This document shows positions 897-44,555 of a DNA stretch of 44,555 bases, one piece after another; the first letter of the stretch is position 1, and every line of letters starts with the position of its first letter. The notes below the pieces were generated by a model. The model saw only the letters and a program-made list of their open reading frames with translations. It had not been told where the DNA came from and searched no databases. The stretch is from Cyanobium sp. FGCU52 (lineage in GTDB: Bacteria; Cyanobacteriota; Cyanobacteriia; PCC-6307; Cyanobiaceae): the NCBI GenBank assembly GCA_024958715.1, contig JANWUS010000001.1, positions 1 to 44,555 on the forward strand. The letters are read 5' to 3'. A program made the position numbers and the translations under genes.

Positions 897-2293
897 CCGA
901 TCTCCAGGGCCAGGACGCGCTCCAGGCTGCGACCGGTGTCCTGACGGAATCGATGGACGTTCACCCGCTCGAGCAACACCAGGGCAGCGAGGCTGATGAA
1001 CAGCTCGACCAGCAGCACCAGCGCGAAGGCCGGATAGGGGCCGGGGCCGAAGGGCAGGGCCTGACCGAGATCGAACAGCCCCCCCCCCAGCACCTTCCCC
1101 AGGGCCCGGGAGAGTGCCTGGGCAAGTCCCCAGACCCCGACGAAGGTGCCAGCCGCCTCGGGCAGGGTGAGATCAAGCATCAGGCACAGGGCACTGTTGG
1201 TGCCCACCCCGGCAGCCAGACCGAACAGCAGCATGACCAGCTGCAGCAGGGGAACGCTGCGGGAGAGGCCCGAAAGCAGCAGCAACAGCAGGGACCCGGC
1301 GATCAGCTGGCAGCCCAGGCGTGCCGTGGGCAGCTTTCCCAGCCTGGGAACGATCCAGAGACCGGCCACCAGCAGCCCCACCAGGGTGCCGATTCCCCAG
1401 AAGGCGTTGAGCTGAGCCGTGGCGGCGATCGGCATCCCGAAGACCTGGGCCCCGTAGCTCTCCAGGATCGGATCCTGCAGAAACAGGCCCAGTGTGAACA
1501 GGATCAGAAAGCCGAAGAAGATCAGAACCTGGCGGCTGGAGGTGATCAGGGCCCAGGACTGGCGCAGGGTGACGGAGTCGTCGCGGCTGGAGGCCTGTCC
1601 TTCCATCGAGGCGCGGGGCTCCCGGGGCCGCTCCATGCCCCAGGTGGCCACCACCGTGAGGGCGAAGACGATGAGGGCGAGGGTGGCCATGAAGCGCATC
1701 AGCGCCGGCTGCAGCACGGCCGGATCCGTCACCCCATCGAGCGAGCGCAGGCTGATGGAGATGGCGATGGCCCCGACCACGATGCCCAGGGTGAGCATGC
1801 ACCAGATCAGCCCCACGGCCCTGGGCCTCTCCACTTCGCTGGTGCGATCGATCACCAGGGCGAGGTACGGCGTGCTGGCCAGGGAGATTGACAGGCCATA
1901 AAGGGCAAACAGCCCGCAGAGGGCGGCGATGGCGAAGGCCACACGGGGCTGCTCCCCGGTGGGCAGGAGGGCCCCCACGTGAAAGATCAACGGCACGGCC
2001 ACCACGGCCAGCAGACAGAAGAGCGAAGCTCCCAGCAGCACGTAGGGAACCCGGCGACGACCCGCCAGGGGATGCCGATCGGAGACCTGGCCGAACAGAA
2101 CACGGGCGGGGGCGACGAACTGCTCGAAGGCCAGAGCACCTCCGACCAGCAGGCCGGGGAACGCCAGTTCGCTGATCATGATCCGGTTGAGCATCCCGGC
2201 AAAGACCACCGCCAGGCAACCGAGACAGGCCTGGAACAGTCCCAGACGCAGGGTCGAGACCACGGTCAGACCCGGGCGGGCGGAAGCGTTCAA
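893..2293 (-). CDS. PucC-like (BCD family) MFS transporter
   Basis: Polytopic membrane protein of 466 residues with about 12 hydrophobic segments. The N-terminal part (LRLGLFQACLGCLAVVFAGM, then NRIMISEL, and later the loop DRHPLAGRRRVPYVLLG) is typical of the PucC/LhaA family, whose members aid light-harvesting complex or chlorophyll-protein assembly in phototrophs. A role in pigment or pigment-protein handling at the membrane is inferred from the family. The start is a TTG overlapping the TolC stop (TTGA); an internal GTG is possible. It lies between tolC and the IMPase gene with 4-nt overlaps on both sides, implying coupled translation. Confidence 0.85.
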   Translation of the reverse strand: MNASARPGLTVVSTLRLGLFQACLGCLAVVFAGMLNRIMISELAFPGLLVGGALAFEQFVAPARVLFGQVSDRHPLAGRRRVPYVLLGASLFCLLAVVAVPLIFHVGALLPTGEQPRVAFAIAALCGLFALYGLSISLASTPYLALVIDRTSEVERPRAVGLIWCMLTLGIVVGAIAISISLRSLDGVTDPAVLQPALMRFMATLALIVFALTVVATWGMERPREPRASMEGQASSRDDSVTLRQSWALITSSRQVLIFFGFLILFTLGLFLQDPILESYGAQVFGMPIAATAQLNAFWGIGTLVGLLVAGLWIVPRLGKLPTARLGCQLIAGSLLLLLLSGLSRSVPLLQLVMLLFGLAAGVGTNSALCLMLDLTLPEAAGTFVGVWGLAQALSRALGKVLGGGLFDLGQALPFGPGPYPAFALVLLVELFISLAALVLLERVNVHRFRQDTGRSLERVLALEIG

Positions 2294-44071: not shown

Positions 44072-44190
44072 GGGGCTCTCGGCTGACGGTGGCGGCTGGT
44101 GCAAGGCGACAGCGGCGAAGGTGTCCGAGGCTACCTCTGATCCCCGGCAACACCCGGCAGGGGGGCCTCCAACAACGCCAAAACAACGAT
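44072..44190. other. Intergenic, nothing recognised
   Basis: Upstream region of the polytopic membrane protein gene. No gene, tRNA or clear promoter hexamer was seen. Confidence 0.5.
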
Positions 44191-44221
44191 GCCCCCGGTG
44201 GGCACGGGGCTCACCGGGGGC
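44191..44221 (-). terminator. Terminator-like hairpin of the small-peptide unit
   Basis: A perfect 10-bp stem (GCCCCCGGTG/CACCGGGGGC, 11-nt loop). On the minus strand it is followed by ATCGTTGTTTT, a poor but T-rich tail. Confidence 0.5.
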
Positions 44222-44277
44222 TCTCGCCGGGTCCGCCATGGCGCGGAACCGAATGATCCGGGGAACCGGGCCGTGAA

Positions 44278-44331
44278 TCAGCCGGCGTTCTCCGCGATCA
44301 GCAGACCCTGAATGGAATGACTGTGGCTCAC
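44278..44331 (-). CDS. Possible 17-residue peptide with strong ribosome site
   Basis: GTG at 44331 to TGA at 44278 encodes MSHSHSIQGLLIAENAG. The message has AGGAGGAGG (44345-44337) ending 5 nt before the GTG, the strongest Shine-Dalgarno I saw in the window. No similarity recognised. It is preceded by two hairpins and followed by a terminator-like stem, so it looks like a short independent transcript. It might be a leader peptide, a small functional peptide, or chance within a regulatory RNA. Confidence 0.4.
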   Translation of the reverse strand: MSHSHSIQGLLIAENAG

Positions 44332-44369
44332 GGACACCTCCTCCTGGTGGGATGGTTGCCAGCCGGCGA

Positions 44370-44399
44370 TACCTTCGGAACCGGCCGTACCCGAAGGTA
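44370..44399 (-). ncRNA. Leader hairpin of the small-peptide unit
   Basis: A perfect 9-bp stem TACCTTCGG/CCGAAGGTA with a 12-nt loop lies 25 nt before the ribosome site of the 17-codon frame. Confidence 0.45.
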
Positions 44400-44418
44400 C
44401 GAGCGGCCCCGCATCACT

Positions 44419-44460
44419 GCTGACGGAACCCCGCGATCTTATCGGGATTGATCCGTCAGC
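44419..44460 (-). ncRNA. Extended inverted repeat upstream of the small-peptide unit
   Basis: Arms 44419-44427 and 44452-44460 are a perfect 9-bp inverted repeat (GCTGACGGA/TCCGTCAGC); the 24-nt interior can extend the stem with CCCG/CGGG. It also contains a minus-strand TAAGAT that could be a -10 box, so it is either a structured RNA leader or a promoter with an operator. Confidence 0.45.
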
Positions 44461-44555
44461 CGCGTCGGGCCGTCCTGCAGGGAGGACGCATGGACATCCC
44501 GCAACTTGATTAGGTAGCAAGCTCCGCGTCCCTCAGGAGGCGCTCTGGCCTCGCA

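Follow-up and report, generated by a model that had tools for sequence, protein, structure and literature searches.

A free-standing small RNA gene at the end of the window

The window, the whole 44,555-nucleotide stretch of DNA analysed here, carries near its end a free-standing small RNA gene on the minus strand that is both conserved and structured. A −10-like box (TAAGAT, 44436..44441, minus strand) precedes a predicted transcript of ~245 nt (44185..44429, minus strand), delimited as the conserved block running from a 5′ motif to the terminator; both ends are predictions, the start being placed ~7 nt past the −10 box. Relatives carry similar hexamers, such as TACGAT, TAGGAT, TAAGGT and TAGGCT, at comparable spacing ahead of the conserved 5′ motif. 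From 5′ to 3′, the transcript holds a 5′ stem-loop (44358..44424, minus strand), a Shine–Dalgarno sequence (AGGAGGAGGTG, 44335..44345, minus strand), a 17-codon open reading frame (ORF) with a GTG start and a TGA stop (MSHSHSIQGLLIAENAG, 44278..44331, minus strand), hairpin A, formed between the second half of this ORF and the region after its stop, and, directly after hairpin A, the terminator-like hairpin B (about 44228–44185, minus strand), whose stem is followed by AUCGUUGUUUU. Folding of the window RNA (44429–44184) beat 200 of 200 dinucleotide shuffles (z −3.12).

The original prediction was right that the RNA is compact and structured and holds a small frame, and the unit has promoter-like and terminator-like signals of its own. 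The predicted ribosome site (44345–44335), 17-codon frame (44331–44278) and terminator stem, with AUCGUUGUUUU after it, are all present and conserved: an alignment of the window and 29 matched loci from the same genus (A1, 30 sequences) shows long invariant blocks from the ribosome site to the 3′ end, with the full AGGAGGAGGTG in 23 sequences and GGAGGTG in all 30. Two further hairpins proposed at the 5′ side hold up in part. The 9-bp inverted repeat at 44419–44460 exists, but it would not be transcribed as a single hairpin, because the predicted start site falls downstream of its 5′ arm and the −10 box (44441–44436) sits within it; the repeat is not conserved, its arms being imperfectly complementary by eye in the closest relative, L009. 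The 9-bp repeat at 44370–44399 is a true inverted repeat, but its pairing rivals the conserved P1–P2–P3 fold of the 5′ stem-loop. The original prediction overlooked the main helix, which joins the second half of the ORF to 44251–44229.

Distribution across the class

A DNA search found the unit, at one copy per genome, in 32 of 36 other genomes of the window's genus, one of which (G005) gave only a 46-base match (E 2e-4). A covariance model built from 30 sequences of the window's genus (R1) matched 203 of the 400 Cyanobiaceae genomes sampled, covering 39 of 59 genera, as a single copy in all but a few, and an exact-pattern scan returned 52 named records, WH7803 included. Outside the Cyanobiaceae, R1 matched seven loci (E 2.7e-7 to 2.8e-14), among them S. 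elongatus-type loci at 2.8e-14 and 2.5e-13. These seven other-family sequences were the source of a second model (R2), which is therefore not independent of R1; R2 matched 245 of the 291 genomes sampled from the class, covering 120 of 130 genera, and matched the window's own genome at E 3.2e-10. The unit had been thought to have no recognised relatives; its matches are instead class-wide, and the S. elongatus form has been published as Sye_sRNA1.

Among 20 genomes listed as unmatched by R1, 15 are small (1.0–1.9 Mb) and five belong to the window's genus, yet other genomes of 1.1–1.9 Mb do carry the RNA. Searches with R1 and R2 found the RNA in none of the listed genomes of genus g40 (1.6–1.7 Mb), which we take to be high-light Prochlorococcus.

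Three structural domains in the RNA

Compensatory changes support three domains: the 5′ stem-loop, hairpin A and hairpin B. In the window, the 5′ stem-loop consists of P1 (44424–44419 with 44363–44358), which covaries, a bulged A (44418), the 7-bp P2 (44417–44411 with 44372–44366), a GAAG bulge (44376–44373) and the P3/apex region (44410–44377), all on the minus strand. The same order recurs in relatives, with P2 of exactly 7 bp, a 4-nt G-N-A-N bulge and a variable P3; it was present in the minimum free energy (MFE) structure of 55 of 89 distinct upstream regions and in 0 of 445 mononucleotide shuffles, which preserve base composition only, and in its exact form was absent from the MFE structure of the other 34. 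P1 takes the forms GUCAGC/GCUGGC, GUUAGC/GCUAAC, GGCAAU/GUUGUC, GCUGAC/GUCAGC and ACUAGC/GCUAGU, among others; the alignment A2 comprises 16 sequences picked for their short 5′ domains. Pairing of the 5′ strand of P1 with CUGCUGA in the ORF is possible in some sequences; this candidate was dropped, being absent by eye in low-light Prochlorococcus-like sequences.

Hairpin A, as drawn by RNAalifold and pair counts, joins a 5′ arm that lies inside the ORF, from the end of codon 8 to the start of codon 17 (44283..44308, minus strand), to a 3′ arm at 44229..44251 (minus strand). Hairpin B (44185..44228, minus strand) has the form GGCGA.GA.GCCCCCGGUG / CACCGGGGGC.A.UCGUU, and the two hairpins do not compete. 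In the Cyanobiaceae alignment (A3; 92 matches from chosen sources, in which the window's genus is over-represented, counted as 89 after three duplicate rows), 97.3% of cells were paired, against 40–51% in slid versions, and double-sided changes occurred in 20 of 37 pairs, against a shuffle mean of 10.1, with 0 of 500 shuffles as high. Hairpin B contributed double changes in 12 of 18 pairs, and the three helices of hairpin A in 4 of 9, 3 of 6 and 1 of 4. Across families, 96.6% of cells were paired and 23 pairs were double-changed, against 14.3 in shuffles, including 11 of 17 in hairpin B and 6 of 7 in the second helix of hairpin A, whose 5′ arm lies inside the ORF. We caution that the alignments A3 and A5 were guided by the structures of the models themselves and are therefore biased towards them. 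Compensatory changes in the stems of relatives, put forward as a check of the original prediction, are seen in both the pair counts and the RNAalifold output.

In the window RNA itself, hairpin A is missing from the MFE structure and present in the centroid. Its 3′ arm can form an alternative hairpin with itself (GGUUCCGC/GCGGACC), which was paired in 610 of 621 cells (98.2%; slid versions 14–51%); since the arms are nearly invariant, this says little about selection. In hairpin A, 79 of 89 sequences keep a U-G wobble whose G has C as its partner in the alternative fold, a weak hint of a double constraint in columns that hardly vary.

A mini-ORF running into the main hairpin

The 17-codon length is shared by 91 of the 92 aligned Cyanobiaceae sequences, the sole exception being a frameshifted, 10-codon form (L152, 1501–1652) from a 71%-complete genome. 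Starts among 74 distinct ORFs are ATG (47) or GTG (27), and stops are TGA (68), TAA (4) or TAG (2); 0 of 75 distinct ORFs have an in-frame stop, against 67 and 9 in the other frames. Across the 30-sequence alignment, the ORF is without indels and starts at a constant distance ahead of hairpin A, whereas the loop that follows it gains and loses tens of bases.

Protection of the amino acids is another matter. The synonymous bias proposed as a check fails or is weak in Cyanobiaceae, where dN/dS is 0.78–0.86 over codons 2–7 and 1.3–1.5 over codons 8–17, and the frame comparison is mixed: codons 2–7 give 0.78 in frame against 1.51 and 0.88 in the shifted frames, and codons 8–16 give 1.04 in frame against 0.74 and 0.58. 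The last residue of the 17-mer may be G, V, A, I, D, S, C or Y, while the third base of its codon is mostly constant. Because the frame stays intact while the amino acids are little protected, what selection preserves in Cyanobiaceae appears to be the frame and the RNA fold, more so than the peptide. The pairing of hairpin A freezes much of the ORF, which in part accounts for the retained frame, and the tiny frame may also be kept because ribosomes traverse the RNA.

In other families the ORF is usually longer: among 36 sequences (L125 included), 27 have 23 codons, one has 24 and eight have 17, the 17-codon forms known here being those of two S. elongatus types, L220 and the Cyanobiaceae. When sequences are aligned by motif, Cyanobiaceae differ by 2 nt from the other families seen in the distance between the conserved GGU codon and a CGGCUG motif, and the reading frame over CGGCUG is therefore changed; the stop, either at this motif or 18 nt past it, is still kept. 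In the other families, in-frame stops number 0 of 27, against 26 and 27 in the other frames. Whole-ORF dN/dS there is 0.76 in frame against 1.04 and 0.97 in shifted frames, with 1.73 over codons 2–8 and 0.48 over codons 9–23, and the 23-codon forms have a conserved C-terminal half, most ending in RLCAGAVL or a near variant. Because codons 9–23 reach 0.48 in frame, the peptide itself could matter outside the Cyanobiaceae.

Codon 4 (codons 4 and 5 are 44322–44317 in the window) reads AGT in 72 of the 74 distinct ORFs from Cyanobiaceae and in 26 of the 27 distinct 23-codon ORFs, GC-rich genomes included, with codon 5 mostly T-final. This bias points to an RNA-level motif where the ORF is unpaired.

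Relation to Sye_sRNA1 and other known RNAs

One R1 match outside the Cyanobiaceae lies directly downstream of psbD, in a genome that we take to be S. elongatus PCC 6301, and at this PCC 6301-like locus ~2714–2718 bp separate the promoter predicted for the RNA from the one predicted for the second porin downstream. In published work, the start sites of Sye_sRNA1 and somA are 2714 bp apart (PMC6091082 Table 1), and most Sye_sRNA1 homologs are downstream of psbD or cobB (PMC6091082). As psbD synteny and the 2714-bp promoter spacing agree, the matched S. elongatus locus is Sye_sRNA1, an identification that is indirect. Sye_sRNA1 is the most abundant sRNA of Synechococcus elongatus UTEX 2973 under control conditions, runs at ~200 nt on Northern blots and is described as an sRNA with conserved structure (PMC6091082). 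Its homologs TU475 in Synechocystis 6803 and TU2045 in Synechocystis 6714 are, like Sye_sRNA1, reported among the most abundant transcripts there, and the 6803 homolog was merged into sll1501 (frame +24 codons) (PMC6091082).

We assign the window RNA, with high confidence, to the Sye_sRNA1 family as its Cyanobiaceae member: covariance models match in both directions and both RNAs are free-standing, with psbD seen upstream of some of the loci. It is a clade-specific variant of the published RNA. Among the families looked at, the 5′ domain of P1, bulged A, P2, GNAN and P3 was seen only in Cyanobiaceae, whose form also differs from the Sye_sRNA1 relatives in a shorter hairpin A apex and in a 17-codon ORF read in a different frame; the predicted ~245 nt of the window RNA compares with ~200 nt for Sye_sRNA1. 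No ORF of its own is described for Sye_sRNA1 in the passages found, those of PMC6091082 among them, which likewise give no function for it. The mini-ORF and its place in the main hairpin are undescribed as far as our literature search reached.

Rfam at the curated gathering score returned 0 matches in the window and only three tRNAs in 35 relative loci. A below-threshold match to the L31-Actinobacteria leader at 44219–44274 (19.6 bits against a gathering score of 35) was taken as chance. The glutamine-sensing RNA of the original prediction is presumably the Glutamine riboswitch/Downstream-peptide motif, which resembles the present unit in its short ORF after a structured 5′ region and its occurrence in cyanobacteria; the unit differs in its fold, in being free-standing and in having no Rfam match. 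Spot 42, with SpfP, is a dual-function sRNA with a tiny ORF. Others are RNAIII/hld, SgrS/SgrT and Prochlorococcus Yfr6/Yfr9 (PMC2518516), which the present RNA resembles in having a translated-looking ORF within a structured small RNA; unlike in those, the ORF here makes up one half of the main hairpin and encodes amino acids that drift within a large clade.

A search at E up to 0.5 gave one match in the genome that we take to be CC9605, and across 29 marine-type genomes it gave a second credible match only in G092 (E 3.4e-20). We rejected identity with Yfr103, a structured RNA of 290–328 nt from marine Synechococcus and Prochlorococcus that is similar in size and overlaps in strains (MED4 is outside those listed), because seven Yfr103 paralogs are reported in CC9605 (PMC5069720). 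The second G092 match is a decayed copy (L180, ~1501–1660, minus strand) ~5.3 kb from the main copy, in which much of hairpins A and B is kept and the ribosome site and frame are lost.

Gene neighbourhood

The nearest downstream long ORF, tallied over 110 loci, is convergent in 73, co-directional in 26 and absent in 11, strand counts that are rough because antisense ORFs in GC-rich DNA are included. The downstream genes are varied and do not form one family, and outside the Cyanobiaceae the next long ORF is mostly co-directional. The 3′ end of psbD was recognised by eye upstream of at least 14 of 29 same-genus loci; psbD was upstream in 7 of 110 loci by the ORF method and in 8 of 35 in another locus set, and a cobB motif of our own marked none of 35 loci.

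At L215, L216 and several of L227–L251, and in part around the window RNA, a recurrent neighbourhood can be seen, with psbD upstream, then the RNA, a small ORF and SLH/OprB-type porins. Porins are often downstream of the RNA, which led us to consider these neighbours as possible targets of its regulation. By eye, the small ORF presumably resembles pterin-4a-carbinolamine dehydratase, and the genes downstream in the window are, we assume, glycosyltransferase-like and porin-like. The window contig ends, at a repeat, ahead of any upstream gene; other loci have other neighbours.

A proposed mechanism and its rivals

Building on the family membership, structure and conserved start, stop and frame established by computation, the explanation that we find best, and hold with moderate confidence, is that the free-standing RNA of the Sye_sRNA1 family carries a translated mini-ORF and that its activity is controlled by ribosomes opening hairpin A. 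A ribosome would start at the strong site and read the 17- to 23-codon ORF; because hairpin A takes its 5′ arm from the second half of the ORF, a translating ribosome would have to open this hairpin, and would terminate in its apex. The released 3′ arm could then refold on itself, and such toggling might set the activity of the RNA, for instance how stable it is or how accessible the 3′ arm is to other RNAs. Since the RNA has its own terminator-like hairpin and variable downstream genes, we infer that the output is exerted in trans or via the stability of the RNA rather than through a downstream gene. Selection in Cyanobiaceae would, on this proposal, keep translation more than the peptide.

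An alternative interpretation is that this is a purely non-coding, trans-acting sRNA whose exposed loops pair with target mRNAs and whose Shine–Dalgarno sequence and ORF are incidental. The published description as an sRNA with conserved structure (PMC6091082) is consistent with it, as are the drift of amino acids in Cyanobiaceae and the mostly retained third-base T of codons 4 and 5, which resembles an RNA motif in that the earlier bases of codon 5 vary; but starts confined to ATG and GTG, stops confined to TGA, TAA and TAG, the lack of in-frame stops in 75 Cyanobiaceae ORFs and in 27 from other families, where the other frames are full of them, and an ORF without indels beside a loop that changes by tens of bases all argue the other way, so that we consider it unlikely. 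Judged by these patterns of conservation, the RNA is probably not purely non-coding. The converse possibility, that the RNA is a small-protein mRNA with the 17–23-residue peptide as product and a structure that only sets translation and stability, draws on the conserved C-terminal half of the 23-codon forms and its dN/dS of 0.48; against it stand the dN/dS of 1.73 over codons 2–8 across families and 1.3–1.5 over codons 8–17 in Cyanobiaceae, the 2-nt frame shift that leaves the peptide replaced between families and the freely varying last residue of the 17-mer, and it too seems improbable to us.

The original prediction had favoured a riboswitch or attenuator in front of a downstream gene. A structured 5′ domain, a leader-like ORF and a terminator-like hairpin do follow one another in the order of such a leader, and the next long ORF is predominantly co-directional outside the Cyanobiaceae; but there is no consistent downstream gene (73 of 110 loci convergent, and the genes differ), the unit has no Rfam match, the conserved terminator-like hairpin B does not compete with hairpin A, and Northern blots show the S. 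elongatus homolog accumulating as an RNA of ~200 nt (PMC6091082). We therefore regard a leader function as very improbable indeed.

Returning to the ribosome-opened hairpin, a broader reading can be offered tentatively, as a possibility that we would not yet back: that one of the most abundant cyanobacterial small RNAs, filed as non-coding, is a translation-dependent riboregulator, with a strong ribosome site and a 17–24-codon ORF kept in all families covered here for the unzipping of hairpin A by a ribosome and the peptide largely a by-product. If this were true, the folding of the RNA would read out the translation state of the cell. New here are the covariance models, the class-wide distribution, the structure with covariation and a testable claim of translation, and an unexplained abundant RNA becomes a question that a start-codon mutant in S. 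elongatus could resolve.

Outside the RNA, the last bases of the window (44504..44555, no strand assigned) are a repeat, probably the end of an insertion sequence, that also occurs where other contigs of this genome end: a 50–57-bp version of 44555–44504 recurs at other contig ends, and a 23–27-bp version is found at further ones, the two versions possibly being the two ends of a multi-copy insertion sequence. The repeat lies ~62 bp upstream of the −10 box.
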